Source of the DNA: Christiangramia lutea
Lineage (GTDB): Bacteria; Bacteroidota; Bacteroidia; Flavobacteriales; Flavobacteriaceae
Length of the DNA stretch: 64,000 bases
Assembly (NCBI RefSeq): GCF_022489035.1
Contig: NZ_JAKVTV010000002.1
Span: 62,001-126,000, forward strand
Direction: 5' to 3'
In this document: positions 8,851 through 26,889 of the stretch, one piece after another
Layout of the letters: each line of letters opens with the position of its first letter
How positions within the stretch are numbered: position 1 is the stretch's first letter
Made by a program: the position numbers and the translations under genes
The notes under the pieces: generated by a model
Told to the model about the DNA's origin: nothing
The model's input: the letters and a program-made list of their open reading frames with translations, nothing else
Databases searched by the model: none

Positions 8851-8866
8851 GAATTAAATATAAAAT

Positions 8867-8909: not shown

Positions 8910-9158
8910 TAACTTATTTTTAATTTTAACGATAAAATTTTGTATTTCAGGTGATTACACATCTGTTATTTGAACATAAATTTTTTTAACGTAATTATTA
9001 AATTCCAAAAAAACGCATCGAATTATTATATATAATGAGGGTTGAACAAATAATAAATTTTGATTTCTTTAGTTTTTAATATTCTTATTAACAAATATTT
9101 ATATATATTTAAATGCGTTCAATGAAAGTTTGAACCACTCCAACTAAAATTTTTATTT
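8910..9158 (+). other. AT-rich leader/promoter region of the SusC operon
   Basis: These 249 bases hold no gene. They are very AT-rich and must contain the promoter and a probably long untranslated leader of the SusC-like gene. No full TTTG-N19-TAnnTTTG promoter and no convincing hairpin could be identified; the best partial -7 match is an AT-rich TATATTTA near 9105. Confidence 0.4.
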
Positions 9159-12100
9159 ATGAAACAAATTATCTTTAGGGGCCTTTTGTTTATTTCGGTC
9201 TTCCTGTTTTACGGGATGGTAAATGCACAGCAAACGGTAACCGGTACGGTAAGTGACGAAACTGGACCGCTTCCCGGCGCGACAGTAGCAATTAAAGGTA
9301 CTTCTACAGGAACCACAACAGATTTTGACGGAAACTATACTTTGAATGATGTTCCTGAAGATGCAACTCTGGTGTATAGTTTTGTAGGTTATGAAACCCA
9401 GGAAGTTGCGGTTGATGGTAGAACAACAATCGACGTGAATCTGGCAACAGATGCTTCCGAACTTGATGAGGTAGTGCTTATAGGTTACGGTCAAACCACT
9501 GTAAGAGATGCAACTGGAGCCGTCTCTTCTGTTAAATCGGAAGAATTCAATAAAGGTATTAATACCTCACCAGACCAGTTACTTCAAGGTAGGGTAGCAG
9601 GTGTTCAGATTACTCAGGCCAGTGGTGAGCCGGGAGCGCCGGCAAACATTAGGGTTCGTGGTACTTCTTCAATTAGAGCAGGTAACGATCCCTTGATTGT
9701 TGTAGATGGGGTTCCTTTAAGCGGTGGAAACGTAAGCCCAGGTAATGATACTGGTTTAGGAAGGAGAGGATCTACTAACCCTCTTTCTTTTATTAATTCC
9801 GCTGACATTGCCAGTATAGATATTTTAAAAGATGCTTCTGCCACCGCTATCTATGGTTCTCGTGGAGCTAATGGTGTGGTGCTTATAACTACTAAAGGAG
9901 GTAGAAGTGGAAAGCCTCAAATTAGTTTTAATTCTTCTTTTCAAACTGGTAAAATATCAAATGAATACGATCTCATTAGTGCTGAAGACTATCCTGGAAT
10001 TGCCAGTAGTGTAGGTAATCCCAATCCAGATCTAGGAGCGCGTTTAGATCCTTTAGGCTCTATCCTGCGTACAGCGTTTACTCAACAACATGATTTTTCT
10101 TACGGATCTGGTGGAGAAACAGGTAATTATAGAATTTCCTTAGGTTTACTTGATCAGGAAGGTATCGTTAAAGGAACTGGGCAGGAAAGATATTCTGGGA
10201 ATATTAATATCACCCAGCGCGCTTTTGATGATGTGGTAACTTTTAAATCTAATATTATTTACTCATACATTAAGGATGACGGAGAGGCTATTTTTGAGAA
10301 TGCTTCAGCGGAAGGAGATTTAATGTCTTCAACCTTGAGGTGGAATCCAACCAGGCCATTTTTTAATGAAGACGGTTCGTATAATCAACCTAGCGATAAC
10401 CAAAGAAACCCTCAGGCTTTCCTGGACTATTTTGAAGATAAAACAGAAACTTCAAGGATACTTGCAAACCTTTCTGCAAGTGTAAAACTTACTGAAGGTC
10501 TTGATTATAAATTTAATATAGGTTTAGATAGAAGTGAATCTACTAGAAGAACTGCTATATCCAATGCTTTTAATGCTAACAACATTCTCGGTAGAGGGGT
10601 GGCATCTTATGAAGATAATTATAATTTCAACAAGCTTTTTGAGCATACTCTTAACTATAATTCAGATATCGCTACCGATTTACAGCTGGATGCGGTTCTT
10701 GGTTATTCTTATCAAAGCTTTGAATCTAAAGGAAACAGTTTAGTTGGTCGTGATTTCAGTATAGCAGATCAGGATAAGTATATCAAGGATATTGGATACG
10801 CTGCTACTTTTCAGCCAACAGAAACACTCGCTTATTATAATCCATCCTCTGAACTTCAATCATTCTTTGGTAGAGCAAACTTTAACTGGAAAAGCCGGTA
10901 TTTATTAACCGCAACTTTAAGAGCTGACGGTTCGAGTAAATTTGGTAGTAACAATAGATATGGATATTTCCCTTCTGTAGGTGCTGCCTGGAGAATTGTA
11001 GAAGAAGGTTTTATGCCTTTAGCAGTATCAGATCTTAAGTTAAGAGGTAGCTGGGGTATTACTGGTAACCAGGAATTCCCTGCGGGATCTGCTCAAACTC
11101 AATTTGGACCAACAGATGACGGTTCTGCCGTACAACAGGTGAACGTAGCTAATCCAGACCTGCAGTGGGAAACAACTGAACAGTTTGGTGTTGGTATCGA
11201 TTTTGGATTGTTCAGTGATAGAATTACAGGATCATTTGATTATTTTACCAGAACTACAAATGATCTTTTATTCAGACTTCCAGCTATTCAGCCTGCTCCA
11301 GATGTAAACTACTGGACCAACTTTGATGATATCGAAATTGAGAACGAAGGTTTTGAAATTTCCTTTAATGCAGCTGTTGTAGAAACTGAAGACTGGACGT
11401 TCGATGTTTCATATAACATGGCCTTTCTGGATAATAAAATTACCAATGTAAGTAATCAGTTCCCAATTGGGATACCAACAGGTGAGGTGAATGGTAGAAG
11501 TTTAACTGGGCAAAGATCACAGTTGTTGTATGATAATCAGCCGCTTTATGCTTTTTATCTACCTGTTTTTGATGGATATGATGAAAATGGAGCACCAACT
11601 TATGTAGATGTAAATGGTGATGGAACAATTAATCCTAATTTTGACGGACCAGGAAGAAGTTCAGACAGAGATTTCGTAGGTGATCCTAACCCTGATATTA
11701 CATTAGGTATTGCATTAAACGCTACCTTTAGAAACTTTGATTTTAGTGCAAACCTGAACGGAGCCTATGGTCATCAGATCTATGACAATACTAATGCAGC
11801 TTTATTTTATAAAGCAGCCGTGGCTAACGGAGATAATGCTACCTACGCTGAGGTGAATTCAGGAGCAGATGCTGCCAATGGCGGACCTTTCCTTTCCACT
11901 AAAGATTTGTCAAGCGGTGACTTCTTGAGGCTTAATAGTGCATCTATTGGATATACCTTCATGGGAGACGATTTTTCAGTTGACTGGATGAACTCATTAA
12001 GAATCTATGTGGCTGGACAGAACCTTTTCGTAATTACTCCTTATGATGGATTCGATCCTGAAGTGAATGTGAATAAGGCTATAGATGATGTTCCATCCTT

Positions 12101-12167
12101 TGGTATAGATTATACTTCCTATCCTAGAAACAGAAGTGTTACGGTAGGAATCAATGCAAACTTTTAA
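9159..12167 (+). CDS. SusC/RagA-like TonB-dependent outer-membrane receptor
   Basis: A 1002-aa protein. A signal peptide ending at VNAQQ is followed by a carboxypeptidase-regulatory-like domain (GPLPGATVAIKGTSTGT, residues about 37-100). A TonB-box-like segment DEVVLIGYGQ is near 102-111. The plug holds the SusC signature DASATAIYGSRGANGV near 226-241, and the beta-barrel runs to an aromatic C-terminal end (GINANF). It is the energised importer of a SusCD pair, with SusD encoded 12 bp downstream. The cargo is unknown. It is separated by a terminator from the dehydrogenase operon but shares its orientation, so it may import the glycoside treated by the flanking keto-sugar genes. Confidence 0.97.
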   Translation: MKQIIFRGLLFISVFLFYGMVNAQQTVTGTVSDETGPLPGATVAIKGTSTGTTTDFDGNYTLNDVPEDATLVYSFVGYETQEVAVDGRTTIDVNLATDASELDEVVLIGYGQTTVRDATGAVSSVKSEEFNKGINTSPDQLLQGRVAGVQITQASGEPGAPANIRVRGTSSIRAGNDPLIVVDGVPLSGGNVSPGNDTGLGRRGSTNPLSFINSADIASIDILKDASATAIYGSRGANGVVLITTKGGRSGKPQISFNSSFQTGKISNEYDLISAEDYPGIASSVGNPNPDLGARLDPLGSILRTAFTQQHDFSYGSGGETGNYRISLGLLDQEGIVKGTGQERYSGNINITQRAFDDVVTFKSNIIYSYIKDDGEAIFENASAEGDLMSSTLRWNPTRPFFNEDGSYNQPSDNQRNPQAFLDYFEDKTETSRILANLSASVKLTEGLDYKFNIGLDRSESTRRTAISNAFNANNILGRGVASYEDNYNFNKLFEHTLNYNSDIATDLQLDAVLGYSYQSFESKGNSLVGRDFSIADQDKYIKDIGYAATFQPTETLAYYNPSSELQSFFGRANFNWKSRYLLTATLRADGSSKFGSNNRYGYFPSVGAAWRIVEEGFMPLAVSDLKLRGSWGITGNQEFPAGSAQTQFGPTDDGSAVQQVNVANPDLQWETTEQFGVGIDFGLFSDRITGSFDYFTRTTNDLLFRLPAIQPAPDVNYWTNFDDIEIENEGFEISFNAAVVETEDWTFDVSYNMAFLDNKITNVSNQFPIGIPTGEVNGRSLTGQRSQLLYDNQPLYAFYLPVFDGYDENGAPTYVDVNGDGTINPNFDGPGRSSDRDFVGDPNPDITLGIALNATFRNFDFSANLNGAYGHQIYDNTNAALFYKAAVANGDNATYAEVNSGADAANGGPFLSTKDLSSGDFLRLNSASIGYTFMGDDFSVDWMNSLRIYVAGQNLFVITPYDGFDPEVNVNKAIDDVPSFGIDYTSYPRNRSVTVGINANF

Positions 12168-12179
12168 TAAAATATTCTT

Positions 12180-13712
12180 ATGAAAAAAATAGTATTAATT
12201 TTATTCGTTAGTGTTCTTGTTTTTGGGTGTACCACCCTGGATGAAGAATTGAACGATACAGTAGGTAGTGAAGTTGCTGCTACCACTGCAGATACAGAGT
12301 CACTGCTCATTTCAGCATATCAGGCAATGAGGATTTTTGATACTCAGGATAATATATTTGCCCTGCAGGAGCATACCTCAGATGAACTAGCAGGGCCAAC
12401 TCGTGGCCCAGACTGGGATGATGGTGGTGTATGGAGAAACTTACATACTCATTCATGGGCGAGTTCTAATAACTTTATCAATAGTGCTTACACTGGATTG
12501 TTAAGTGGAATTTTCCGTTCAACACAGGTTTTGGAGTTCGATCCAACACCAGAACAGGCTGCACAGGCAAGATTCTTGCGTGCATTCTTTGCTTTTCATT
12601 TAGTAGATAATTTTGGGTTGGTTCTTGGAAGAGAACCAGGAGAAGATCTTACCACACCACCTTCTATTACGCTTAATAGACCAGAAGGTATCAATTTTGT
12701 GATCTCCGAGCTTGAAGAGGTAATTAATGATCTTCCAGATGTAGGAGATGCCACAGTGGCGAATAAAAATGCTGCCCACTTCTTACTGGCTAAGGCATAT
12801 CTAAACCGAGCGGTTTATATGGCGACAGATGCCAGTTCTAATGCAGCATCAGCAGGACCATTTAGTTTTGATTCTGGAGATATGAATAGTGTGATCTCAA
12901 ATGTCGATGCTATCATTAATTCTGGTGAATATGAATTGGAAACTATGTATTTCGATAACTTTTCTCCTACTAATACCGATGATAGTTCTGAAAATATTTT
13001 TGTAAGTGAAAATGTTAGGGGTAATAACCCTGCCAATACTCACTCGAGATGGCACATGACATTACATTATAACAATCAACCAGATGGATGGAACGGTTTT
13101 GTGACCCTTGCTGAGATTTATGATCTTTATGAAGATGGAGATATGAGAAGGGAATTCACTCCAGATTATTTTGAAGGAAATACCGGAATGAATGCAGGAT
13201 TCTTACTTGGTCAGCAGTATGCAGCCGATGGATCACCATTAGAAGATAGAAACGGCGATCCATTAGCCTTTACAAAGGATTTTTCAATAACAGCATCCAG
13301 TGAGGTGGCAGGAATTAGGGTTATTAAATATCCTGTAGACTTTACGAATATTGGGTCTGTTGGTAATGATTATGTTCATTTTAGATATGCAGATGCCTTA
13401 TTAATGAAGGCTGAAGCTATCCTTCGAGGTGGCGCTGCTACAAATGGGGATACACCTGAATCTCTGGTTAATTCTATAAGAGCCTTAAGGGGAACTTCAA
13501 ATCTCGATGCGGTTACTTTAGACGAAATTCTTGACGAAAGAGCAAGAGAATTATATTGGGAAGGATGGAGAAGAAATGATCAAATCCGTTTTTCAACTTT
13601 CTTAGATGCTCATCATGAAAAACCAGCATCTTCAGAAACCTATTTGTTATTCCCAATTCCACCAGATGCATTGTCTACGAACCCTAATTTAACTCAGAAC
13701 CCTGGATATTAA
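12180..13712 (+). CDS. SusD/RagB-like surface lipoprotein
   Basis: A 510-aa lipoprotein with signal ending VFGC (lipidated Cys17). It has the SusD/RagB layout: an N-terminal SusD-like helical TPR segment (AARFLRAFFAFHLVDNFG near 134-152, with the family's ARxLRA-type motif) and a C-terminal RagB/SusD part with DYVHFRYADALLMKAEA near 397-413, ERARELYWEGWRR near 456-468, and the typical terminal FPIPPDALSTNPNLTQNPGY. It caps the SusC pore and binds the substrate at the cell surface. It is 12 bp after SusC. A hairpin follows at 13735-13765. Confidence 0.97.
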   Translation: MKKIVLILFVSVLVFGCTTLDEELNDTVGSEVAATTADTESLLISAYQAMRIFDTQDNIFALQEHTSDELAGPTRGPDWDDGGVWRNLHTHSWASSNNFINSAYTGLLSGIFRSTQVLEFDPTPEQAAQARFLRAFFAFHLVDNFGLVLGREPGEDLTTPPSITLNRPEGINFVISELEEVINDLPDVGDATVANKNAAHFLLAKAYLNRAVYMATDASSNAASAGPFSFDSGDMNSVISNVDAIINSGEYELETMYFDNFSPTNTDDSSENIFVSENVRGNNPANTHSRWHMTLHYNNQPDGWNGFVTLAEIYDLYEDGDMRREFTPDYFEGNTGMNAGFLLGQQYAADGSPLEDRNGDPLAFTKDFSITASSEVAGIRVIKYPVDFTNIGSVGNDYVHFRYADALLMKAEAILRGGAATNGDTPESLVNSIRALRGTSNLDAVTLDEILDERARELYWEGWRRNDQIRFSTFLDAHHEKPASSETYLLFPIPPDALSTNPNLTQNPGY

Positions 13713-13734
13713 TTAGTTTTTGTATTTATACTTT

Positions 13735-13765
13735 AAAAGCCTTTCCGTATTTTGGAAAGGCTTTT
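13735..13765 (+). terminator. Hairpin between SusD and the first FG-GAP gene
   Basis: A 12-bp perfect stem (AAAAGCCTTTCC / GGAAAGGCTTTT) with a 7-nt loop ends in TTTT. It lies 22 bp after the SusD stop and about 33 bp before the next gene start. It could be a partial terminator that lets SusCD be made in excess over the downstream lipoproteins. Confidence 0.65.
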
Positions 13766-13798
13766 AACTTTATATCGGCTTAACCCAAATTATTGATA

Positions 13799-16700
13799 TT
13801 GAAAAGATCAGTTTTATTTTTGTGTAGTCTTCTCTTAATTCTTTCCTGCGCAGATGAAACCGAAGATAGAGTAAATAAAAGGTTTCAGATCCTTCCTTCT
13901 AAAGCGAGCGGTATAGATTTCAGTAACGAGATCATTTCCAGCAAAGAACTTAATATTCTTAATTATCTCTATTTCTATAATGGAGCCGGTGTTGCTGCGG
14001 CAGATTTCAACAACGACGGACTAGTGGACCTCTACTTTGCCGCAAATATGGATAGTGATAAACTGTATTTGAATCATGGAAATTTAAAGTTCAGAGAGGT
14101 TTCAACCCCAGCAGGTATTTTGCAGAATAGAACCTGGTCTAATGGCGTTACTACTGTAGATATTAATGATGACGGGCTATTGGATATCTATGTATGTGAA
14201 GTAGGTAATTACAAAAATCTTCAAGGAGCAAATAAACTTTATATAAACCAGGGCAACGATTCAGAAGGGATTCCAGTATTTTCAGAAGAAGCAAAAAAAT
14301 ACAATCTTGATTTCAGCGGGATGTCCACCCATTCGGCATTTTTCGATTTTGATCTGGACGGAGATCTTGATATTTTCCTGTTAAACCATTCTGTTCATCC
14401 AAACGCGAACTATGGTGTAGGATCTACCAGAAATCAGAATGATAGTATTTCCGGAGACAAATTGCTTAGAAATGATAATGGCCGGTTTACCGATGTTACC
14501 GAAGAAAGTGGTATCTACAGCAGTAAAATTGGGTATGGTCTTGGTTTGGCTATTGGAGATATAAATAATGATGGTTTTCCTGATATTTATGTTGGGAATG
14601 ATTTCTTCGAAAACGATTACCTGTATATCAACCAGCAGAATTCCACCTTTAAAGAACATATTTCTTCAGAGAATAGCGGGATCTCACATACTTCTCATTA
14701 TTCCATGGGTGTGGATATTGCAGATTTCAATAATGACGGACTTCAGGATATCATAAGTTTGGATATGCTACCAGAGGATCTCACTACTTATAAGGCCTCA
14801 GGTACAGATTTTTCATACCAGATTTACCATAATTATTTGAATAAAGGTTATGCAAACCAGTATATGCAGAATGCTTTGCAACTAAATCTGGGAAATATTA
14901 ATTTCAGTGAGATTGCACATATTTCTGGAATCGCGGCTACCGAATGGAGCTGGGCACCCTTATTTGCCGATCTGGATAATGATGGGAAGAAGGATCTTTT
15001 TATCACGAACGGGATCCTGGGTGCTACTAATGATATGGACTATATCAGTTTCATCGCTAATGAAAATATTCAAAAAAGACTAAATAAAGGAATGACCGAT
15101 CAGGATATGAAGATCATCGAGGAAATCCCGGTAAAGCGAACAGCCAATTATTTTTTTAGAAATCAAGGTGATTTGTCTTTCAGTAATATGAAAGGGAATT
15201 GGTCAAAACCTGAGGAATCCTTTAGCAATGGTGCCGTGTATGCCGATCTAGATAATGATGGAGATCTGGACCTGGTAACCAATAATGTGAATTCAAAAGC
15301 CTTTATTTATGAGAACCGGAGTAATAGCCTGGATAGTTTAAGCTACTTAAAGCTGAACTTTAAAGGCCCTGAAAAGAATAAATTTGGTATTGGAACAAAA
15401 GTGAAAATTTATACCGGTAAGGACATTCAGTTTTTGGAGAATTATCCTTCCAGGGGTTTTATGTCATCTGTACCACCAATACTTCATTTTGGTCTAGGAA
15501 ATCGATTAAATGTAGACTCTCTTGAGGTAATCTGGCCTGGAGGCGCTATACAAAAATTGAAGAATGTTGCATCAGATCAATCCATAACCCTTAATTATGA
15601 AGATGCCGTTGTACAGGAAAAAGTATTAGAAGAAAAACCTGAAATTTCCAGCGTGCCACTTTTGGAAAATAGGCACCGGGAGTTTTCCTTTAAAGATTTT
15701 ACCTATGAACCATTAATTCCATATTCCCAATCAAACCTGGGGCCGGCTGTATCTGTTGTCGATTTTAATGGTGACGGATTGGAAGATATCTTCATTTCCG
15801 GCGATCAGTTTAACCCCGGTAGAATGTGGCTACAAAATACTAATTCAGCCTTTACCCTTGTGGAAAACATTCAAATAGGCTCTAATGCCAGAGAACCCGT
15901 AGACCAGGTTTTCTTTGATATGAACAACGATAAAGCTCTTGATCTTATAGTGGCTTACGGTGGTACAGATCCAAACAATTCAGGAAAGAATCATCCGGAA
16001 ATATATTTGAACAAAAACGGAAATTTAGAGAAGACGTCTTTTCTTGATAAAATTGATATAAATGCTTCAGTTGTAAAATCTGCAGATTTCAATAACGATG
16101 GATTTGCGGATATTTTTATCGCCAGCAATTCAGATTATGGAAGCTATGGAAGATCTGGAAAAGCAAAAATTCTTTTGAATCAAAATGGTGCCGAATTAAG
16201 CGATTCTTCATACTATAATAATTCTTTGAAAGATTTGGGTATGGTCTACGATGCCTATGTTACAGATATAAATAATGATGATTATACCGATATCATTATA
16301 GCTGGACATTATATGCCATTGACCATCCTTCTTAACTCTGCTGAAGGTAATTTTATTAAAAAGGAGATCAATAATACTGAGGGTTGGTGGAATTCAGTTG
16401 CCATCGAAGATTTCGACAAGGACGGAGACCTGGATATTCTGGCCGGGAACTGGGGGCTCAACAGCAGGCTGAAGGCCAGTTTAGAAAATCCTTTGCAATT
16501 ATACCTAAATGATTTCGACGATAACGGAAAGACAGATCCCATTCTAACTTATTTCTACAAAGGTAGAGAAACCCCGTTGGCCACTAAAGATGAGTTGTCC
16601 AAACAGATCCCGGCATTGAATAAATCCTTTTTGTCTTATACCGATTTCGCAGAAGCAGATTTTAATGATTATTTTTCAGAGGAGAAAATTGATGGTTCCA

Positions 16701-17089
16701 TAAAGAAAAAGGTAGTAACCCTGGAAACCACTTTATTTGAGAATACTGGGAACCTGGAATTCAGGAAAATGAGTTTACCCAGGGAAGTTCAATTTTCATC
16801 TGTTCATGATATATTAATTACTGACATTGATAATGATGGTCTATCAGATGTTGTTATGGGAGGTAATAATTATCACGTCAACACCCAATTGGGTAGATTA
16901 GACGCCAGTAAGGCACTAATTCTTAGAAATAAAGGGAATTTGAAATTTGAATTAATCAGGAACAAACTCTACATTAATGGAGCAGTAAAATCTATTAAGA
17001 AAATAAAAATTCAAGATGAAAATTATTTCATTTTTGGAATGAACAACGATAAAACCCAATTTGTTAAATACCCCGAATTAAATGAATAA
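13799..17089 (+). CDS. Giant FG-GAP/VCBS repeat lipoprotein with ASPIC/UnbV domain, paralogue 1
   Basis: About 1096 aa, with a TTG start chosen at 13799 because it gives MKRSVLFLCSLL and a clean lipobox (LILSC, Cys17). An in-frame TTG at 13793 is the alternative. Many Asp-rich loops of the form DxNxDGxxD (for example DFNNDGLVD near 69-77, DINNDGFPD, DLDNDGDLD, DFDKDGDLD, DIDNDGLSD) mark an FG-GAP/VCBS beta-propeller that should bind calcium. Mid-protein the ASPIC/UnbV (CRTAC1-like) domain contains FGIGTKVKIY, SRGFMSSVPP, HFGLGNR and VIWPGG. A second set of FG-GAP repeats follows, with GNNYHVNTQLGRLDAS near the end. Known roles are binding or adhesion; no catalytic motif is visible. It overlaps the next gene by 8 bp. 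Confidence 0.9.
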   Translation: MKRSVLFLCSLLLILSCADETEDRVNKRFQILPSKASGIDFSNEIISSKELNILNYLYFYNGAGVAAADFNNDGLVDLYFAANMDSDKLYLNHGNLKFREVSTPAGILQNRTWSNGVTTVDINDDGLLDIYVCEVGNYKNLQGANKLYINQGNDSEGIPVFSEEAKKYNLDFSGMSTHSAFFDFDLDGDLDIFLLNHSVHPNANYGVGSTRNQNDSISGDKLLRNDNGRFTDVTEESGIYSSKIGYGLGLAIGDINNDGFPDIYVGNDFFENDYLYINQQNSTFKEHISSENSGISHTSHYSMGVDIADFNNDGLQDIISLDMLPEDLTTYKASGTDFSYQIYHNYLNKGYANQYMQNALQLNLGNINFSEIAHISGIAATEWSWAPLFADLDNDGKKDLFITNGILGATNDMDYISFIANENIQKRLNKGMTDQDMKIIEEIPVKRTANYFFRNQGDLSFSNMKGNWSKPEESFSNGAVYADLDNDGDLDLVTNNVNSKAFIYENRSNSLDSLSYLKLNFKGPEKNKFGIGTKVKIYTGKDIQFLENYPSRGFMSSVPPILHFGLGNRLNVDSLEVIWPGGAIQKLKNVASDQSITLNYEDAVVQEKVLEEKPEISSVPLLENRHREFSFKDFTYEPLIPYSQSNLGPAVSVVDFNGDGLEDIFISGDQFNPGRMWLQNTNSAFTLVENIQIGSNAREPVDQVFFDMNNDKALDLIVAYGGTDPNNSGKNHPEIYLNKNGNLEKTSFLDKIDINASVVKSADFNNDGFADIFIASNSDYGSYGRSGKAKILLNQNGAELSDSSYYNNSLKDLGMVYDAYVTDINNDDYTDIIIAGHYMPLTILLNSAEGNFIKKEINNTEGWWNSVAIEDFDKDGDLDILAGNWGLNSRLKASLENPLQLYLNDFDDNGKTDPILTYFYKGRETPLATKDELSKQIPALNKSFLSYTDFAEADFNDYFSEEKIDGSIKKKVVTLETTLFENTGNLEFRKMSLPREVQFSSVHDILITDIDNDGLSDVVMGGNNYHVNTQLGRLDASKALILRNKGNLKFELIRNKLYINGAVKSIKKIKIQDENYFIFGMNNDKTQFVKYPELNE

Positions 17090-20000
17090 AAGTTCTTTTT
17101 TATTACTGTTTCTAATCATTGCCGTTTCCTGCGGAAAGGATAAGGAAGAAACAGGTGTTCAGAATTCTAATGATTTTCGTTTTACTGAAATGCCTTCAGA
17201 TTCTACGGGTATAGATTTTATAAACAAGGTGGATAACGAAAAGGAGTTCAATATTTTCAATTATCGAAATTTTTATAATGGTGGAGGAGTTGGAATTGGA
17301 GACCTGAATAATGACGGTTTGCCAGATGTATATCTAACTGCCAACAGGGAAAAGAACAAACTATACCTGAACAAAGGAAACTTCAAATTTGAGGACATTA
17401 GCAAATCTTCAGGCACAGAGGGAAGCAGGTCCTGGTCTACCGGGGTGACCATGGTAGATATTAACACAGATGGCTACCTGGATATCTATGTTTGTAATGC
17501 GGGCAACCTGGAAGGCGATGATAAAAAGAATGAACTTTTCATCAATAACGGAGATCTCACATTTACTGAAAAGGCCGCGGAATATAATCTCGATGATACA
17601 GGGTTTGGAACGCATGCTGCCTTTTTCGATTATGATTCAGATGGAGACCTGGATGTATATATCCTCAATAATAGCTTTATACCGGTAAGCAGTCTTGGCT
17701 ATGTGAATAAAAGGGAATTGCGAAGTGAAGACTGGGAAATTCCAGACCTTCTAAAAGGTGGTGGAGATAAGTTATTAAGGAATGATGATGGGAATTTTAC
17801 CGATGTTAGTGAAAAAGCTGGTATTTATGGTAGCCTTATAGGTTTTGGCCTGGGCGTTACCATTGGCGATATTAATGGAGATTTCTTACCGGATATTTAT
17901 GTTTCCAATGACTTTTATGAGCGAGATTACCTCTATATAAACCAGGGTGACGGAACTTTCAGGGAAAAAATAAAGGATTATATGCAGCACCTAAGTCTAT
18001 CCTCAATGGGTGCAGATATGGCCGATCTTAACAATGATGGACTTCCAGAGATCTTTGTAACCGATATGCTACCGGAAGATGATGCCCGGCTTAAAGAAAC
18101 CGGCGACTATGAACGATATGATCTTTATCAACTTAAAAAGAGCAGAGATTTTTACAATCAGTATATGCAGAATACCCTGCAATTGAATAATGGGAATGGT
18201 ACCTTTTCTGAAATTGCTCATTTTAGTGGTGTTGCCAAAACCGACTGGAGCTGGGGAGCCTTGCTTTTTGATATGGATAATGATGGTTACCGTGATATTT
18301 TCGTAAGCAATGGAATTTACCATGATCTAACCAATAACGACTTTATGGACTTTTTTGCTAACGATATCATTCAGAAAATGAGTATAACAGGGAAGAAAGA
18401 AGTTATAGAAGAGGTGATCAACAAAATGCCTTCTACTCCTATTCCTAATTACTCATTTAAAAACGGTAAAGACCTGGTATTTGAGAATAAGGCGGAGGAA
18501 TGGGGGCTTGACCAACCCGGGTTTTCCAACGGTTCAGCTTATGCCGATCTGGATAACGACGGAGATCTTGACCTGATCGTTAATAATTTTAATATGCAGG
18601 CTTTCGTATATAAGAACAATAGCGAGAGAGATAAAAAAAATTATATCAAGTTAGAAGTAAAAGGTGAAGGAAAAAATACCATGGCGATTGGAAGTGTCAT
18701 TGATATATTTTTAAAAGGTGAGGTCATCAGGCAGGAATTAATTCCAACCAGGGGATTCCAGTCTTCTGTAGATTATGTACAGACCATAGGCCTCGGTAAG
18801 GCAAAGAAGATAGACTCTTTACGAATCGTTTTTACTAATAGGAAGAAGTTGGTCGTAAAAGACCCTGAACTGAATTCAACCCTGGTTTTAGATCAAAAGG
18901 ACGCGGATGAAGATTGGTCCCAAATTTCCGATAGCAAAGAAGCCTGGTTCGAAGAAATGGATATAGATTTTGAGATAAACAAGGAAGACCGGCATGTAGA
19001 TTTCGATTATGAAGGCCTTATTCCGAAAATGCAGTCCCAGGAAGGTCCGGCTACCGCGGTGGCAGATATTGACGGGGACGGGAATGATGATCTCTATATA
19101 GGAGGTGCATTTGGCAGCCCCGGTAAGATCTACCTTCAGAAGGAACCGGGAAAACTTGAGCCTATCACCTTCAATGCTGGTGAAAATTTTGAAGATACCG
19201 ATGCTGAATTCGCAGATATCGACGGGGATAATGACCTTGATCTGCTGGTAACTTCCGGAGGTAACTTTAAGAATGCCAGGACAGGCCTCAGGGCATATAT
19301 CAACGATGGAAATCAGAATTTCAGTGATTATAAGATCGTGTCTTATTCTCCAAATAACACTTCGAACGTTGAAGTTTCCGACATTGACGCAGACGGAGAT
19401 CTGGACCTTTTTCTTGGCGTATATACCGTTCCTGGTATTTATGGGCTAAAAGTTTCCAGCCTGATCCTAGAAAATAATGGTAAAGGTGAGTTTAAGGATA
19501 TCACGGAATTTGCCGCACCAGGCTTGAAGGATATCGGGATGGTGAAAGCAGCGGTTTTTGAAGATTTAAATAAAGACGGAAATTCCGATCTCACTGTTGT
19601 GGGAGAATGGATGAGTCCGAAAATTTTTATAAATAACCAGGGAAGATTTGAGCTGAAGAAAGATGAGTTATCAGATTATGCCGGTTTGTATAACAGCGTG
19701 CTGGCAAAGGATATCAACAATGATGGTTTCCCAGATCTTATCCTTGGAAATAGAGGGGAGAATGCCAGTTATCAGGCTACGAAGTCTGAACCGGCAAAAA
19801 TGTTCGTTACAGATTTTGATCTGAATGGAACTACAGAACAGGTTTTTACAAAGACCATAGATAGCCGTGATATACCTTTACATACAAAAAGGGAATTAGC
19901 AGGGCAGATTGTATCTATCAAGAAAAAGAACATGAAGTTCAGCGAGTATTCCAGTAAATCTATTCAGGAGCTTTTCGCAGCCGATATACTCAAAAATGCC

Positions 20001-20390
20001 CAGGTTAGTGAAATTCATAATTTCAAAAGCATAATTGCCTATAATGATGGTAAGGCTAACTTCAAAGTTGAAGCTTTACCAACCCAGGCGCAATTTTCCT
20101 GTATTTGCAGTATTAACACAGCCGATCTCAATAGAGATGGCAGGCAGGACCTTATTCTTGCAGGAAATAATTATTCTTTAAAACCTCAGTTTGGAAGGCT
20201 TGATGCCAGTTTTGGGACCATACTGCTTAATGATAAAGACGGATTCAAAGTAGCCAGTTCTGATGATTCAGGTTTGCTTCTTAAAGGAGAAGTAAAATCC
20301 CTGGAGTGGTTGCAGGACAAAAATGGTAACAGGTATCTTTTAGCAGGTATAACGAATGACAAACCCAAACTCTTTAAGCGAAATGAATAA
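17082..20390 (+). CDS. Giant FG-GAP/VCBS repeat lipoprotein with ASPIC/UnbV domain, paralogue 2
   Basis: A 1102-aa lipoprotein (IIAVSC, Cys17) with the same architecture as its upstream neighbour. The N-terminal segment FNYRNFYNGGGVGIGD leads into Asp-rich repeats (DLNNDGLPD, DINTDGYLD, DYDSDGDLD, DMDNDGYRD, DLDNDGDLD). The ASPIC/UnbV domain follows with AIGSVIDIF, TRGFQSSVDY and IGLGKAKKIDSL. A second propeller half contains DIDGDGNDD, DIDGDNDLD, DIDADGDLD and DINNDGFPD, and ends with GNNYSLKPQFGRLDAS. It begins inside the stop region of the previous gene with the shared string ATGAATAA, which suggests translational coupling. It is probably exposed on the outer membrane. The ligand is unknown. 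Confidence 0.92.
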   Translation: MNKSSFLLLFLIIAVSCGKDKEETGVQNSNDFRFTEMPSDSTGIDFINKVDNEKEFNIFNYRNFYNGGGVGIGDLNNDGLPDVYLTANREKNKLYLNKGNFKFEDISKSSGTEGSRSWSTGVTMVDINTDGYLDIYVCNAGNLEGDDKKNELFINNGDLTFTEKAAEYNLDDTGFGTHAAFFDYDSDGDLDVYILNNSFIPVSSLGYVNKRELRSEDWEIPDLLKGGGDKLLRNDDGNFTDVSEKAGIYGSLIGFGLGVTIGDINGDFLPDIYVSNDFYERDYLYINQGDGTFREKIKDYMQHLSLSSMGADMADLNNDGLPEIFVTDMLPEDDARLKETGDYERYDLYQLKKSRDFYNQYMQNTLQLNNGNGTFSEIAHFSGVAKTDWSWGALLFDMDNDGYRDIFVSNGIYHDLTNNDFMDFFANDIIQKMSITGKKEVIEEVINKMPSTPIPNYSFKNGKDLVFENKAEEWGLDQPGFSNGSAYADLDNDGDLDLIVNNFNMQAFVYKNNSERDKKNYIKLEVKGEGKNTMAIGSVIDIFLKGEVIRQELIPTRGFQSSVDYVQTIGLGKAKKIDSLRIVFTNRKKLVVKDPELNSTLVLDQKDADEDWSQISDSKEAWFEEMDIDFEINKEDRHVDFDYEGLIPKMQSQEGPATAVADIDGDGNDDLYIGGAFGSPGKIYLQKEPGKLEPITFNAGENFEDTDAEFADIDGDNDLDLLVTSGGNFKNARTGLRAYINDGNQNFSDYKIVSYSPNNTSNVEVSDIDADGDLDLFLGVYTVPGIYGLKVSSLILENNGKGEFKDITEFAAPGLKDIGMVKAAVFEDLNKDGNSDLTVVGEWMSPKIFINNQGRFELKKDELSDYAGLYNSVLAKDINNDGFPDLILGNRGENASYQATKSEPAKMFVTDFDLNGTTEQVFTKTIDSRDIPLHTKRELAGQIVSIKKKNMKFSEYSSKSIQELFAADILKNAQVSEIHNFKSIIAYNDGKANFKVEALPTQAQFSCICSINTADLNRDGRQDLILAGNNYSLKPQFGRLDASFGTILLNDKDGFKVASSDDSGLLLKGEVKSLEWLQDKNGNRYLLAGITNDKPKLFKRNE

Positions 20391-23300
20391 AATTTCATGG
20401 GTCCTTTATTTGTCAATTTTCGTTCTTCTTATTTCCTGTGCCGAAGATAAAACTGAAAAAAGTGAGAAGAAACAGGAACAGCTTTTTACCCGGCTAAAAT
20501 CTAATGATACCGGGATAGATTTCAGAAATGATCTCACGGAAACCGATTCCATGAATATTCTGGAATACCTCTATTATTATAATGGGGGAGGAGTGGCCAT
20601 TGGAGATATCAATAATGATGGCTTGCAGGATTTATTCTTTACTTCGAACCAGGAAGAAAACCGGTTATATCTCAACCAGGGAAATATGAAGTTTCAGGAT
20701 ATATCGGAGACTGCAGGAATAACCGGTAATTCAGACTGGAATACCGGTGTTACCATGGCCGATGTTAATGGCGATGGAAATCTGGATATTTATGTTCTTG
20801 CCGTAAGTGGGATCAAAGGCTTGAAAGGACAGAATGAATTATTTATAAACCAGGGTGATAATACCTTCATCGAAGCTGCCTCAGAATATGGAATAGGACT
20901 TGAAGATTACGGAACTTCTACTGCATTTTTTGATTATGACAACGACGGAGATCTAGATCTTTATATACTGAATCATGCGGTGCATACAGATGAATCTTTC
21001 AGTCCTGCAGAGATTCGAGAAAGAAGGAATGCGTACAGTGGGGATAAATTGTTTCGCTATGAAAATGGGAAATTCACAGATGTGAGTGAAGAAGCAGGCA
21101 TTTACGGCGGTCCCAATGCCTATGGCCTGGGCGTCGCTACAGCCGATCTTAATAATGATGGTTTTACCGATATATATGTGAGTAACGATTTTCATGAGGA
21201 TGACTACCTGTACATGAATAATGGTGATGGAACCTTTTCAGAGGAAATGAAAAAGAAAATGACCCAGGTTAGCAGGTTTTCTATGGGAAGTGATATTTCA
21301 GATATCAACCATGACGGTTATCAGGACATTTTAACTGTAGACATGCTACCCGAAGATGAAACAGCTTTAAAAGCTTCAGTAGGCGATGAGGATATCAATA
21401 TTTTGAATCTAAGAATGCAATACGGTTATCATCGCCAGTTTAGCCGGAATATGCTGCAATTGAATAATCAGGGAAAGAATTTCCAGGAAATCGCCTTACT
21501 AAGCGGAATCGAAGCTACAGACTGGAGCTGGTCTCCCTTATTTGCCGATTATGATATGGACGGGGAAACCGACCTGTTCGTTTCCAATGGAATTGTCCGC
21601 AGGCCAAACGACCTTGATTATATTCGTTTCATTTCGAATTCCCAGATAAATAAAAACAGCAATGATTCTGAATTTATGGATAAGGAATCATTGAATATGA
21701 TGCCAGAGGGGAAAGTGAATAATTACTTTTTTAGAGGTACTAAAAATCTTGATTTTCAGGATAGATCTTCCAGTTGGATCTTGCCTGAAGATTCCTTTTC
21801 CAATGGTGCCGCATATGGCGACCTGGACAATGATGGTGATCTGGATCTTGTAACCAATAATATCAATTCTGAAGCCTATGTTTATATGAATTCAGCTTCA
21901 AATAAGAATAACTATTTGAGGTTCCAGTTCCATTCTGATGAAAAAAATACTTTTGGGATTGGAACAAAGGTCTACTCCTATAGTAATGGAGAATTGCAAT
22001 ATGATCAGCTCTTTACAAGTAAAGGATTTCAATCTTCTTCTGAGCCTTTTTTACATTTTGGATACGGGAATAAAAAACTTATAGATTCGATACATGTTAT
22101 CTGGCCCGAAGGAACTGTCCAGAAATTACATGATATTGAAACTAACCAGGTTCTAGTTCTCAGTCCTACCGAAAATGAGATTAACAGTTCATTGAAACGC
22201 TCGAAATATCCCAACAGGCAGATTTTTGAAAAGGTTGATAGTATCCCCGGTTTTTCATTCAGGCATAGAGAGAACTCCTATAATGATTTTGACCGGCAGA
22301 AGCTTATTCCCTATCGAATTTCAGATGAAATGCCCGTAGCGGCTACCGGAGACTTCAATAATGATGGTCTGGACGATCTATTTATTGGCAATTCCCGCGG
22401 GGTGAGTTCTGAAGTATATTTACAAACTGCTGAAGGTTTAAAAAAGTCCAGTTTTCCTTTTTTAGAGGAAACCAGGAATTCTGAAGTAAGAGGAGTGGAG
22501 ATCGCCGATTTTAATAACGACGGAAAAGACGATATTTTCTTTGTAACCGGCGGTGGAGAATTTACCGGAATATTTGATGTTTTAAAGGATAGTTACTGGA
22601 CCGAAATTAGTGGTACCTGGGAAAAAGTTTCCTTGCCGGAATATTATTCTGATGCGGGAGTGGTTGTTTCAGCCGACATAGATAAAGATGGCGACCTGGA
22701 TATTTTTGTAGGTGGACGTGCAGTGGCCGGGGATTATGGTAAAATACCCGAATCATTCCTGCTAGAAAATATCGATGGAAAATTTCAGCTGGTAGTAAAT
22801 GATGATCTAAAAAATGCCGGATTGATCACCGATGCTATCTGGGACGATATGAATGAAGATGGTTTTCCGGAATTGATCCTGGTAGGAGAGTGGATGGCCC
22901 CAAAGATATTTGAGAATAAGAATGGTAGACTTGAACTCTCTGAAAAATTAGAATTGAACGATCTTTCTGGTTTATGGCAATCTATTGAAGCATTTGATAT
23001 AGATGGGGATGGCGATCAAGATTATATTCTGGGTAACTGGGGTGATAATTCAAAATTTAAAGCCTCTACTCAGGAGCCCTTGCGAATGTATTATGGCGAT
23101 ATCGATGGGAACGGTAATTCAGAAACTATTCTTGCCAGGAATATTGATGGACAATACTACACCTTTGCAGGTCTGGATGAACTTAGCAGTCAGATGAATT
23201 TTTTGAAAAAGAAATTTCCAAATTATAAGAAATTCGCTGGTAAGAATATTCAGGAGATATTCGGAAAAAGCCTGGGTAAAATGGAGGTTCGAGAAATTCA

Positions 23301-23664
23301 AACCACCGGCTCCGGTTATTTAAGAAATGATCATGGAAAATTAACTTTTATATCCTTTAACAAAAATTTACAATTTGCGCCTATAAATTCTATATTTGTA
23401 TGGAACGATCTCATTGACATTAAACCAGCTGCTATTTTAGGCGGGAACTATTTTGGGGTTACTCCCTACCATGGTGCCTACGGGGCTTTTCCCGGTGCGG
23501 TGATTACTCCCGAAATGAAAATCTTGTCTGGCGATCTAACCGGTATCGATTTTACTGGAAAGGCCGTAAGGAGCCTTATTAAAATAGAGATTCATAAAAA
23601 GAAATTTTTGATCGGGTTATTGAATGATGACGAACCGATCATCTATAAATACGAGGCTAAATGA
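20383..23664 (+). CDS. Giant FG-GAP/VCBS repeat lipoprotein with ASPIC/UnbV domain, paralogue 3
   Basis: About 1093 aa from the ATG at 20383. An upstream in-frame start at 20356 would add nine residues inside the previous gene and spoil the signal peptide. The lipobox is LLISC (Cys19). Asp-rich repeats (DINNDGLQD, DVNGDGNLD, DYDNDGDLD, DLNNDGFTD, DLDNDGDLD) precede an ASPIC/UnbV domain (FGIGTKVYSY, SKGFQSSSEP, HFGYGNK, VIWPEG). A second propeller half follows. Unlike the other two copies, the C-terminal GNNY...GRxDAS motif is replaced by GNYFGVTPYHGAYGAFPG. It overlaps the previous gene by ATGAATAA and the next by ATGA, so the cluster is read as one operon. Confidence 0.92.
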   Translation: MNKISWVLYLSIFVLLISCAEDKTEKSEKKQEQLFTRLKSNDTGIDFRNDLTETDSMNILEYLYYYNGGGVAIGDINNDGLQDLFFTSNQEENRLYLNQGNMKFQDISETAGITGNSDWNTGVTMADVNGDGNLDIYVLAVSGIKGLKGQNELFINQGDNTFIEAASEYGIGLEDYGTSTAFFDYDNDGDLDLYILNHAVHTDESFSPAEIRERRNAYSGDKLFRYENGKFTDVSEEAGIYGGPNAYGLGVATADLNNDGFTDIYVSNDFHEDDYLYMNNGDGTFSEEMKKKMTQVSRFSMGSDISDINHDGYQDILTVDMLPEDETALKASVGDEDINILNLRMQYGYHRQFSRNMLQLNNQGKNFQEIALLSGIEATDWSWSPLFADYDMDGETDLFVSNGIVRRPNDLDYIRFISNSQINKNSNDSEFMDKESLNMMPEGKVNNYFFRGTKNLDFQDRSSSWILPEDSFSNGAAYGDLDNDGDLDLVTNNINSEAYVYMNSASNKNNYLRFQFHSDEKNTFGIGTKVYSYSNGELQYDQLFTSKGFQSSSEPFLHFGYGNKKLIDSIHVIWPEGTVQKLHDIETNQVLVLSPTENEINSSLKRSKYPNRQIFEKVDSIPGFSFRHRENSYNDFDRQKLIPYRISDEMPVAATGDFNNDGLDDLFIGNSRGVSSEVYLQTAEGLKKSSFPFLEETRNSEVRGVEIADFNNDGKDDIFFVTGGGEFTGIFDVLKDSYWTEISGTWEKVSLPEYYSDAGVVVSADIDKDGDLDIFVGGRAVAGDYGKIPESFLLENIDGKFQLVVNDDLKNAGLITDAIWDDMNEDGFPELILVGEWMAPKIFENKNGRLELSEKLELNDLSGLWQSIEAFDIDGDGDQDYILGNWGDNSKFKASTQEPLRMYYGDIDGNGNSETILARNIDGQYYTFAGLDELSSQMNFLKKKFPNYKKFAGKNIQEIFGKSLGKMEVREIQTTGSGYLRNDHGKLTFISFNKNLQFAPINSIFVWNDLIDIKPAAILGGNYFGVTPYHGAYGAFPGAVITPEMKILSGDLTGIDFTGKAVRSLIKIEIHKKKFLIGLLNDDEPIIYKYEAK

Positions 23665-25022
23665 AGTTTATTAATAGAATAAATATTTTTCTATTTGGGC
23701 TGGTTCTTTTCAGTTCTTGCCAGAATGATGAACCCATTGTGGTAACTTCTGAAGATTACCATACCGCGATAGATAAAATCACTGAAGTTCAGGTACACGA
23801 TATTTTTTCTCCGCCTGTGGCCAGCAGGATCTATGCTTATTCTAATATTGCTGCCTATGAAGCCTTGCAGGCTGGTAATTCAGAATATAAAAGCCTGGCA
23901 GGGCAGTTGAATGAACTCACCCCGGCACCTGCTCCTAAGGATACCACAGGATTAAATCTCAGGGTTTCCTCTATAGTGGCGTTCTATGAAATAGGAAAAA
24001 GTTTGATCTTTTCTGAAGAAAGTGTGGTAAACTTCAGAGATAGTATTTATAAAAACTGGGAAAGTAAAAATCCCGAAAGTTTTAGGAAATCTAAAGCATA
24101 CGGGCTTGAGATTGCCACTCATATCAAAGGTTGGATGAGCAATGATAATTATGCAGAAACCCGCACGATGCCTAAATTTTCCCTTTATACTGAGGATGAA
24201 AGTAGATGGCAGCCCACCCCGCCGTCGTATATGGATGGTATAGAACCGCACTGGATGAAAATAAGACCCTTTGTAATCGATTCTGCAGCACAGTTTAGAC
24301 CAGCACCACCACCGGAGTTTTCCATGGAACCTGACTCCAGATTTTATAAAGAGTTAACCGAAGTTTACGAAGTGAAACGTGAAATGGATGAAATAGGTGA
24401 CAGCAATGAAAATGAAAAGCTGGAAATAGCGAAATTCTGGGATTGCAATCCGTATGTTTCTACTCAAAAAGGACACCTTATGTTCGCTACTAAAAAGATC
24501 ACCCCTGGCGGTCACTGGATTGGGATTACCAAGATCGCCTGTAGAAAATCTAAGGCAGATTTTAATAAGACTGTTTATGCCTACACCAGGACTTCTATTG
24601 CTATAGCAGATGGTTTTATCAGCTGCTGGGACGAGAAATATAGAAGCAATCTCGTTAGACCGGAAACTTTGATTAATAAATATATCGATGAGAACTGGTC
24701 TCCAGTATTGCAAACACCGCCATTTCCTGAATACACCAGCGGACATTCCGTAGTATCAGGGGCAGCAGCGATAGTTCTTACCGATATTTTCGGTGATAAT
24801 TTCTCCTTTGAAGATGATACCGAGGTAGCTTATGGATTACCCGTAAGAAATTTCAATTCATTCAATGAAGCTTCTTTGGAAGCAGCCAATAGTAGATTAT
24901 TTGGAGGAATACACTATAGAGCGGCTATTGAAGTTGGATTAAAGCAAGGTAGAGATCTGGGTAATTTTGTAGTAAATAATCTACAGTTAACTATTGAGAA
25001 CCAAAGCCTGGCATCGAATTGA
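23661..25022 (+). CDS. Vanadium-dependent haloperoxidase / PAP2-superfamily lipoprotein
   Basis: A 453-aa lipoprotein (LVLFSSC, Cys20). The whole vanadate/phosphate-binding set of the haloperoxidase-PAP2 superfamily is present: Lys326 and Arg333 in WDEKYRSNLVRP, Ser360-Gly361-His362 in EYTSGHS, and Arg412 with His418 in SRLFGGIHYR. The length and helical content match bacterial vanadium-dependent haloperoxidases rather than short PAP2 phosphatases. The known reactions are halide oxidation by H2O2 with bound vanadate, or phosphomonoester hydrolysis. Sequence alone does not tell which applies. It is coupled to the third FG-GAP gene by a 4-bp overlap, so it should be made with the propeller proteins and act in the periplasm or at the cell surface. 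Confidence 0.88.
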   Translation: MKFINRINIFLFGLVLFSSCQNDEPIVVTSEDYHTAIDKITEVQVHDIFSPPVASRIYAYSNIAAYEALQAGNSEYKSLAGQLNELTPAPAPKDTTGLNLRVSSIVAFYEIGKSLIFSEESVVNFRDSIYKNWESKNPESFRKSKAYGLEIATHIKGWMSNDNYAETRTMPKFSLYTEDESRWQPTPPSYMDGIEPHWMKIRPFVIDSAAQFRPAPPPEFSMEPDSRFYKELTEVYEVKREMDEIGDSNENEKLEIAKFWDCNPYVSTQKGHLMFATKKITPGGHWIGITKIACRKSKADFNKTVYAYTRTSIAIADGFISCWDEKYRSNLVRPETLINKYIDENWSPVLQTPPFPEYTSGHSVVSGAAAIVLTDIFGDNFSFEDDTEVAYGLPVRNFNSFNEASLEAANSRLFGGIHYRAAIEVGLKQGRDLGNFVVNNLQLTIENQSLASN

Positions 25023-25024
25023 TC

Positions 25025-25945
25025 ATGAAAAAGGTCACTTTAACCCTATTGCTGCTCATTTTCGCAGGATTAGCTTGGTATCTATTTATTAAAAAATATG
25101 ATTATCAGTTCGAAACAACTGCCAGATATGGTCCAGGTGCAGTATCATATGAATTGTCTGAATGGAAGAAGCTAAATCTAACCGAGAATTCCGCTGATAT
25201 TGAACTCATTAATAAGGAAGATTTCAAGACCCTTACCCAAAGAATAAAAGTTGATAGTTTCCATAGCCTTGAATTTAACTGGGAGTTGGAAAAGCTGAAT
25301 GATAGCGCTACGTCTATAACGCTAAATGTTTATTCTAAAAAGAACAAGCTGGGTAACCGGATAGATATTGTAAACCCTTTTCAAACCAGTAATTATATAG
25401 ACAGCCTGAAGGAGAAGGTAATTAACTTTAAAAAGCAGTTAAGAGACCACCAGAACCTTTATAGGATAACTCCTGAAACCTCTTTAGTAAATACACCCGG
25501 GATGGAGTGTATATGTAGTTCATCTAAAGGTATTCCTCTAACCGGCAAGGCATCTGAAATGATGAGAACAATTTCTGTTTTAGAAAATTATGTTCTTAAA
25601 AATGAAATTAGCTTGAATGGTTATCCCTTTCTGAAAGTTACCAACTGGAACAGGGAGCAGGATCTTATTGCTTTTGATTTTTGTTTTCCGGTGAAAGACA
25701 TCTCAAACTTACAGGAGACTGCAAAGATCAGTTTGAAAAAATTCTCATCCCAAAAAGCGCTTAAGCTTTTATTTAATGGTAATTATAGACTCTCTCACAT
25801 TAGCTGGTTCGATCTTATTTTTATGGCGCAAGATCGTGGAATGGAGATAGAGGAGTGGCCCATGGAGATCTATCATGACAACCCAAAGATCGATAGCGAT
25901 CATCTTAACTGGAAGGCTGAGGTCTATCTACCGGTGAGTGAATAA
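25025..25945 (+). CDS. Membrane-anchored SRPBCC/GyrI-like effector-binding domain protein
   Basis: About 306 aa from the ATG at 25025. A TTG at 25019 overlapping the previous stop is less likely. One N-terminal membrane segment (residues 4-19) is followed by FIKKYDYQFETTARYGPG, a start seen in flavobacterial proteins with an SRPBCC-like half and a C-terminal GyrI/AraC effector-binding-like half ending in WKAEVYLPVSE. I recognise the pattern but no catalytic residues. Such domains bind small hydrophobic or aromatic ligands. It is last in the SusCD/FG-GAP operon and its stop abuts the stop of the converging lipid kinase gene. Assignment is moderate and the function unknown. Confidence 0.6.
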   Translation: MKKVTLTLLLLIFAGLAWYLFIKKYDYQFETTARYGPGAVSYELSEWKKLNLTENSADIELINKEDFKTLTQRIKVDSFHSLEFNWELEKLNDSATSITLNVYSKKNKLGNRIDIVNPFQTSNYIDSLKEKVINFKKQLRDHQNLYRITPETSLVNTPGMECICSSSKGIPLTGKASEMMRTISVLENYVLKNEISLNGYPFLKVTNWNREQDLIAFDFCFPVKDISNLQETAKISLKKFSSQKALKLLFNGNYRLSHISWFDLIFMAQDRGMEIEEWPMEIYHDNPKIDSDHLNWKAEVYLPVSE

Positions 25946-26818: not shown

Positions 26819-26889
26819 CCGGTAATCTTTTTGAAACCCCTAAAATTAATTAATTTGGAATGAAGGAATTTTAAAAAAAGCCCAATATT

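Follow-up and report, generated by a model that had tools for sequence, protein, structure and literature searches.

In a 64,000-nucleotide stretch of the Christiangramia lutea genome (the window, contig NZ_JAKVTV010000002.1, positions 62,001 to 126,000, to which all coordinates below refer unless a locus is named), seven head-to-tail open reading frames (ORFs) on the plus strand at 9159–25945 form a cassette that joins an outer-membrane SusC–SusD importer pair (SusCD) to three FG-GAP/ASPIC lipoproteins (FG1, FG2 and FG3), a vanadium haloperoxidase (VHPO) lipoprotein and an SRPBCC/GyrI-like protein with a putative membrane helix, ORF7. This combination of SusCD, FG-GAP/ASPIC proteins and haloperoxidase is real and conserved, and is undescribed as a cassette within the literature searched, where none of the titles and abstract openings listed linked the three components. 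Gene order, conservation and active-site residues support a predicted functional unit of a surface iodoperoxidase, FG propellers and SusCD. We tentatively read the locus as a SusCD nutrient-uptake locus of Bacteroidota in which the outer-membrane enzyme would be an iodoperoxidase instead of a glycosidase, a prediction that we place a little short of probable. An earlier note, made from the DNA letters, had proposed a single outer-membrane system that captures and chemically modifies a substrate, and our analysis supports that interpretation in part.

Layout of the locus and its proteins

The seven genes lie where the earlier note had placed them, as confirmed by ORF positions and Pfam/NCBIfam matches, and the locus comprises the following features (protein lengths in amino acids, aa).

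9159..12167, plus strand: SusC, TonB-dependent SusC/RagA importer, 1002 aa (TIGR04056)
12180..13712, plus strand: SusD lipoprotein lid, 510 aa (PF07980)
13733..13767, plus strand: terminator-like hairpin at the SusD/FG1 seam of two putative modules (folding energy, relatives)
13793..17089, plus strand: FG1, FG-GAP/ASPIC lipoprotein, 1098 aa (TTG start at 13793 or 13799)
17082..20390, plus strand: FG2, FG-GAP/ASPIC lipoprotein, 1102 aa
20383..23664, plus strand: FG3, FG-GAP/ASPIC lipoprotein (ORF opens at 20356, ATG at 20383 the likely start)
23661..25022, plus strand: VHPO lipoprotein of the Zobellia iodoperoxidase (4cit) type, 453 aa (match to 4cit)
25025..25945, plus strand: ORF7, N-terminal membrane helix, SRPBCC-like part and GyrI/AraC-effector-like putative ligand-binding domain, 306 aa
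8867..8909, no strand assigned: terminator-like hairpin between a GMC/gluconate-2-dehydrogenase gene pair and SusC (folding energy)

SusC and SusD are separated by 12 bp and SusD and FG1 by 80 bp, while the frames from FG1 onward overlap by 8, 35 (8 if FG3 starts at 20383), 4 and 4 bp, in keeping with the near-touching arrangement described previously. Inspection by eye revealed a lipobox cysteine followed by acidic residues in SusD, FG1–3 and VHPO; a lipobox regular expression returned four matches and missed FG1 (LILSC). The importer assignments rest on profile matches of 730.7 bits to TIGR04056 for SusC and 81.8 bits to PF07980 for SusD, and the solved structure nearest to SusC by sequence is 8aa4, from the dextran utilisome (E 4.1e-108). 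Across the whole 3.47-Mb genome there are eight SusD matches, whereas ASPIC domains (three) and VHPO matches (one) occur nowhere outside the cassette.

The VHPO aligned with the vanadium-dependent haloperoxidase of Zobellia galactanivorans (4cit/4usz) at 65% identity over residues 12–446 of 453 (E 1.8e-203), with the second-best solved VHPO at E 0.0012. K326, R333, G361, H362, R412 and H418, which we take to be the vanadate ligands, are the same as in 4cit, in agreement with the complete set of vanadate-binding residues claimed earlier, and W323, D324, Y265, F355 and S360, which we likewise presume to have active-site roles, are also shared, so that all 11 inspected active-site positions are identical. 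By full-length homology and these residues the enzyme is classed as being of the Zobellia iodoperoxidase type, with iodide oxidation as its predicted activity. The best named matches come from Christiangramia species of the Flavobacteriaceae (C. gaetbulicola VHPO, 85%). Among the loci examined, the one closest to 4cit (L063, genome G001) encodes a VHPO 98.8% identical over 432 aa that sits inside an FG1-FG2-FG3-VHPO-ORF7 array, and the crystallised Zobellia iodoperoxidase therefore very probably belongs to this cassette type.

FG1–3 are full-length paralogues with pairwise identities of 39–40%. Each displays 8–9 FG-GAP_3 stretches and a UnbV_ASPIC domain (Pfam/NCBIfam) at about residues 532–601, a mid-protein position that leaves propeller repeats on both of its sides. 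Calcium-loop motifs of the DxDxDGxxD type number 11, 10 and 11 in FG1, FG2 and FG3, compared with 0.01–0.02 in shuffled sequences (500 each), which bears out the earlier description of three Asp-rich-propeller/ASPIC paralogues of about 1100 aa. FG-GAP repeats, calcium-loop motifs and the ASPIC domain together assign them to the FG-GAP/ASPIC (CRTAC1-like) class, and the best solved relatives of FG2 are cartilage acidic protein 1 (CRTAC1, 9etn) and, by profile, also integrin alpha chains. With CRTAC1, which also carries an ASPIC domain, and with the integrin alpha propellers they share FG-GAP propeller repeats with calcium loops, but they differ in being lipoproteins of bacteria, in the FG-GAP repeats that flank ASPIC on either side and in standing three in tandem.

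The predicted model of ORF7 (pLDDT 92.2, from an alignment of 55 sequences) shows a helix at residues 2–22 followed by two alpha/beta parts. Foldseek matched the C-terminal half to GyrI-like/AraC-effector and SOUL domains, among them CtaZ with closthioamide, CTR107 with rhodamine, EcmrR and BrlR, with E-values down to 3.5e-9 and TM-scores by target of 0.72–0.83 for isolated domains (ten best matches); lower-ranked matches were two-domain StAR-like ARO/CYC proteins aligned across most of its length. The predicted fold thus supports the SRPBCC/GyrI-like label given earlier, with a GyrI-like fold in the C-terminal half and, more weakly, an SRPBCC-like half. ORF7 differs from the GyrI-like and SOUL proteins in its putative membrane anchor, its SRPBCC-like half and its identity of 16–19% (nine best Foldseek matches), and it matched no Pfam/NCBIfam family at the curated cut-off and no GyrI-like or SRPBCC profile. 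From the model we infer that ORF7 may face the periplasm and bind aromatic or hydrophobic ligands there.

Conservation and gene neighbourhood

The family survey covered 397 Flavobacteriaceae genomes, 239 of which held a VHPO match at E ≤ 1e-3 and 175 a strong match (about 1e-90 or better, a threshold picked by hand from the table), and the phylum-wide survey covered 395 genomes, 98 of them with a VHPO match. Flanks were examined for 100 family loci, 40 loci elsewhere in the phylum (other-family loci, 39 genomes) and 80 named loci with flanks of at most 10 kb, 13 of which duplicate family loci; genes were counted with profiles built from the family. An FG gene lay ahead of VHPO on the same strand in 94/100 family, 31/40 other-family and 76/80 named loci (63/67 without repeats), and downstream of it in 0/100, 3/40 and 0/80, respectively. 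The end of an FG gene was no more than 300 bp from the VHPO frame, taken stop to stop, in 78/100, 22/40 and 69/80 loci. SusD accompanied FG in 67/100, 20/40 and, within the 10-kb limit, 26/80 loci, compared with roughly 3 per 100 in which chance alone would place a SusD upstream on the same strand; SusC lay downstream in 1/100, 6/40 and 1/80. ORF7 directly followed VHPO in 70/100 family and 69/80 named loci but in 0/40 other-family loci, three of which carry it ahead of VHPO (L219, L223 and L229). The recurrence in other Bacteroidetes that the earlier note had set as a check thus extends far beyond close relatives, and the lack of conserved synteny that the note named as a refutation does not apply.

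The six presumed vanadate-ligand positions are as in the window in 100/100 family, 80/80 named and 37/40 other-family loci; in the last group the Y265 position is tyrosine in 12/40 and the D324 position aspartate in 26/40. SusD-FG2-FG3-VHPO-ORF7 recurs in 10/12 Arenibacter loci examined, and a plasmid of Gemmatirosa, from the phylum Gemmatimonadota, carries SusC-SusD-FG2-VHPO-FG2. On a Hymenobacter plasmid the order is TonB receptor-SusD-VCBS-hypothetical-VHPO, with VHPO split over two annotated genes, while the annotation around an Adhaeribacter plasmid VHPO listed no nearby VCBS or SusD gene. ASPIC was present in 175/175 family genomes with a strong VHPO match versus 135/222 others (Fisher 1e-26, a value that kinship makes too small); those 135 genomes rule out ASPIC as a marker of VHPO alone.

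Relatives repeatedly show sugar genes linked to the cassette. Near the 100 family loci we counted xylose isomerase (XylA) in 30, a xylulokinase-like FGGY kinase (XylB) in 30, a sodium symporter of the SSF type in 48, LacI in 10, GH97 in 8, MFS in 8, a kojibiose-hydrolase-like GH65 in 6 and GH13 in 5; the corresponding figures for the 40 other-family loci were GH65 6, SSF 4, MFS 3, XylB 1, GH97 1, GH13 1 and XylA 0. XylA and XylB always lie on the cassette strand (36/36 and 35/35), at sites between SusD and FG, upstream of VHPO or behind ORF7; XylA is single-copy in 28 of the 30 genomes that have it at the cassette, and its presence changed state at least 12 times on a VHPO tree built from the window and 139 loci (140 rows; L253, a 5.2-kb stretch, was left out). 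In the relatives with linked sugar genes, these neighbours point to a sugar-bearing substrate. The earlier note's statement that the cluster lacks a glycoside hydrolase and a regulator of polysaccharide utilisation loci (PULs) holds for the window cassette but not for some relatives, where such genes stand beside it: no carbohydrate-active enzyme (CAZyme) is present among the seven genes, and no linked regulator was found among these and the ten neighbours tested. The susC and susD genes are adjacent but a CAZyme is lacking, so the locus is not filed as a classical PUL.

Several other genes recur around these loci. A calcineurin-phosphoesterase (Metallophos) protein of ~1050–1170 aa with an Omp85-like C-terminus (L066:15888-19400 and relatives) lies downstream in 46/100 family and 42/80 named loci, with one exception on the opposite strand, and a ~285-aa lipoprotein-like protein with a marginal NHL-repeat match (L098:1717-2658 and relatives) accompanies 48/100 family and 39/80 named loci, in many of them behind the cassette. 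A ~196-aa lipoprotein-like protein for which no family was found (L096:5509-6105 and relatives) stands between or near FG genes in 21 loci, often in cassettes without ORF7. In one Christiangramia locus a 1069-aa Sortilin/BNR-repeat protein (L136:14255-17464) adjoins the cassette; it is absent from that place in the window.

In the window, the next gene behind ORF7 is diacylglycerol-kinase-like (DAGK), lies on the opposite strand and ends at 25946; together with a phosphatidate-phosphatase APP1-domain gene (25946–27855) it follows the cassette in 8/8 Christiangramia/Gramella loci examined, and in L102 and L120 the cassette is inverted between the DAGK/APP1 genes and the GMC pair. Just upstream, positions 1108–8850 encode a 3-keto-disaccharide hydrolase, two sugar-isomerase-like TIM barrels, a Gfo/Idh oxidoreductase, a nucleoside symporter, and a GMC oxidoreductase with gluconate-2-dehydrogenase subunit 3, a set that looks like a 3-keto-glycoside pathway. 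Farther along, a fused trehalose-6-phosphate synthase/phosphatase lies opposite a GH15 trehalase-like gene (30673–34778), and both occur in three named Christiangramia loci.

The seam behind SusD and the competing explanations

A hairpin of 15 pairs with a weak T tail separates SusD from FG1 (stretch 13727–13770, -20.2 kcal/mol, z -7.6), and another precedes SusC (stretch 8862–8915, -22.1 kcal/mol, z -10.7). With a perfect stem of at least 9 and a T-rich tail as the criterion, the SusD-FG junctions of relatives carried a hairpin in 45/76 cases versus 0.2 in dinucleotide shuffles (44/74 without duplicates). None was found in 91 SusC-SusD, 176 FG-FG, 170 FG-VHPO and 139 VHPO-ORF7 junctions, most of which are too short for one. 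The hairpin is not a general trait of SusD genes: within the same 160 nt it followed 46/74 cassette SusD genes versus 4/29 other SusD genes from four genomes (Fisher p 8e-6). Given its position, SusCD may be transcribed separately from the FG-VHPO block, or transcription may be attenuated between them, and the hairpin may thus mark an expression seam, either a terminator followed by a new promoter or an attenuator that favours SusCD as the most abundant product. A search for TTTG-TAnnTTTG, which we take to be the Bacteroidetes-type promoter consensus, found no match before SusC, and the window held 3 matches where 2.3 are expected by chance.

Protein distances across 24 complete cassettes plus the window correlated most strongly between SusC and SusD (r 0.90). 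Of the three propellers, FG2 followed SusCD best (r 0.78/0.70 with SusC/SusD, partial 0.66/0.57), ahead of FG1 (0.60/0.48) and FG3 (0.56/0.43), while VHPO gave 0.55/0.49 and ORF7 the lowest values, 0.39/0.33. A set of 39 complete cassettes gave a similar picture (SusC-SusD 0.89, SusC-FG2 0.67, SusC-VHPO 0.52). There, 33 pairs combined SusC identity of at least 65% with VHPO below 68%, and no pair combined SusC below 45% with VHPO of at least 78%, so that a clean recombination signal of SusCD swapping is absent. L086, excluded from the 39 because its SusC is cut, shares with the window 77% identity in full-length SusD and 76% in a 242-aa piece of SusC, and 50–56% in the FG proteins and 61% in VHPO.

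A number of observations weigh against the uptake locus, or against one built as a single rigid system. The hairpin splits SusCD from the FG-VHPO block, and the SusCD distances track those of VHPO and ORF7 only in part. SusD was not seen in 33/100 family loci, and 20/40 other-family loci lack SusD with FG by our profiles, which divergent SusD types escape (L236 carries PF12771); an independent-pairs test of FG against SusD, with few pairs, returned a median p of 0.25. Upstream of the L063 array lie genes for a sodium symporter, an IMS-type polymerase, a DnaE-type protein and a LacZ-type protein, with SusCD not within reach; L068, which shares the genus code of that genome (VHPO 88%), has both SusC and SusD. 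That ASPIC also occurs in 135 genomes lacking a strong VHPO match implies that FG proteins have other settings as well. As to the substrate, SSF and GH65 lie on the cassette strand in only 21/81 and 9/24 cases, each cluster of recurrent neighbours was named from one representative, and the window genome has no xylose isomerase match and its cassette no sugar gene or glycosidase, so that the sugar link rests on relatives. Finally, the loci are mostly best-scoring matches rather than a random sample, and the genomes are related, not independent.

Part of this evidence would suit a historical neighbourhood in which SusCD, FG and VHPO are independent lipoprotein systems kept together by vertical descent: the hairpin between SusD and FG1, the loci without SusD, and a chromosomal flank conserved in many genera, as exemplified by the Metallophos-Omp85 gene. 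We consider such an origin improbable, given that other families, other classes and a plasmid from a second phylum also have the cassette, that the FG-VHPO-ORF7 frames touch or overlap, and that the gene order is one-sided. The enzyme might alternatively be a surface phosphatase with which the locus scavenges phosphorylated organic matter, since VHPOs and PAP2 phosphatases have a common fold and oxyanion site and PAP2 is the only Pfam match of this VHPO. The 65% identity to an iodoperoxidase with identical inspected active-site residues, and named recurrent neighbours that are sugar rather than phosphate genes, make this very unlikely. Of the two chemistries left side by side in the earlier note, halogenation is accordingly preferred over dephosphorylation, because of that identity and the near-identical copy in the same kind of cassette.

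A halide system is a more serious candidate. VHPO would convert iodide to I2/HOI, by which the cell would accumulate iodine, remove H2O2 or defend itself chemically, the FG proteins would be calcium-dependent surface anchors, and SusCD and the sugar genes would be neighbours that supply carbon or reductant. In Arenibacter sp. C-21, iodine accumulation needs glucose, oxygen and calcium, an H2O2 source can replace glucose, and the strain has five or more homologues of the Zobellia enzyme (PMC5064120); the genome note names SusD proteins and iodoperoxidase homologues without linking them (PMC5064120). We infer that the calcium need of C-21 would suit the FG-GAP loops, and the 10/12 Arenibacter loci with SusD-FG2-FG3-VHPO-ORF7 add to the case, as does the upregulation of Zobellia vIPO3 on A. 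nodosum versus alginate, according to the part of that report available to us (PMC9296495). On the other side, SusCD should not be required for iodine species, the linkage of sugar genes to the cassette has arisen repeatedly, and some lineages with cassettes, for instance Hymenobacter (from air) and Gemmatirosa, have no tie to iodide-rich water. Gemmatirosa is of soil origin. The window's GMC oxidoreductase, a possible H2O2 source, has a match beside only 2/100 family loci (one other-family locus, L242, has two GMC genes nearby), and the GMC pair of the window (6490–8850) stands 308 bp and a hairpin away from SusC, so that it was rejected as a general H2O2 supply. We regard the halide system as possible but rather doubtful.

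A proposed surface system and its significance

In the uptake locus that we favour, SusCD would import a sugar-bearing substrate. The FG-GAP/ASPIC lipoproteins would be double propellers that depend on calcium and act as scaffolds or bind substrate, a position otherwise held by SusE/F-type surface proteins, with FG2 closest to SusCD. At the cell surface, the VHPO lipoprotein would turn iodide into hypoiodous acid by means of vanadate and H2O2, and captured material could thereby be modified, loosened or detoxified. ORF7, which would sit in the inner membrane and face the periplasm, may bind an aromatic or hydrophobic small molecule released from, or imported with, the substrate, and SusCD and FG-VHPO-ORF7 would be two expression modules parted by a terminator or attenuator. 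In its strongest form, which we put forward as unlikely though conceivable, the proposal describes a surface complex: calcium-bound FG double propellers would hold the iodoperoxidase over the SusCD mouth, local hypoiodous acid would attack phenolic or aromatic glycoside material, SusCD would import the loosened sugar-bearing product, in the periplasm ORF7 would catch the aromatic moiety, and the linked XylAB, SSF and GH65/97/13 genes of relatives would burn the sugar.

The layout resembles that of SusCD PULs and the levan and dextran utilisomes, in which, in the portion of the source available to us, adjacent SusC and SusD are followed by surface lipoproteins and an enzyme lipoprotein (PMC7618045). 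Here, compared with that portion, an oxidative enzyme replaces the glycosidase, FG-GAP/ASPIC giants replace the glycan-binding lipoproteins, a hairpin seam follows SusD and the window cassette has no regulator (PMC7618045). A utilisome is a stable SusCD outer-membrane complex, whereas for the present proteins co-divergence alone was seen. As for the Zobellia iodoperoxidase, no description of its gene neighbourhood as a SusCD/ASPIC cassette was found in the literature searched. A 2026 halogenase survey defines a VIPO sequence cluster, and its available part lacks the words Bacteroid-, Flavobacteri-, SusC and genomic context (PMC12871659).

For bacterial iodoperoxidases a crystal structure exists, and the literature searched offered no settled physiological role. 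A cassette conserved across Flavobacteriaceae and beyond gives these enzymes named partners for knock-outs and pull-downs, and it gives the widespread ASPIC propellers a setting. If the proposed reading is true, the halogen chemistry of marine iodine cycling and algal defence would be tied to nutrient uptake in Bacteroidota, and the cassette suggests that SusCD loci need not rest on hydrolases.

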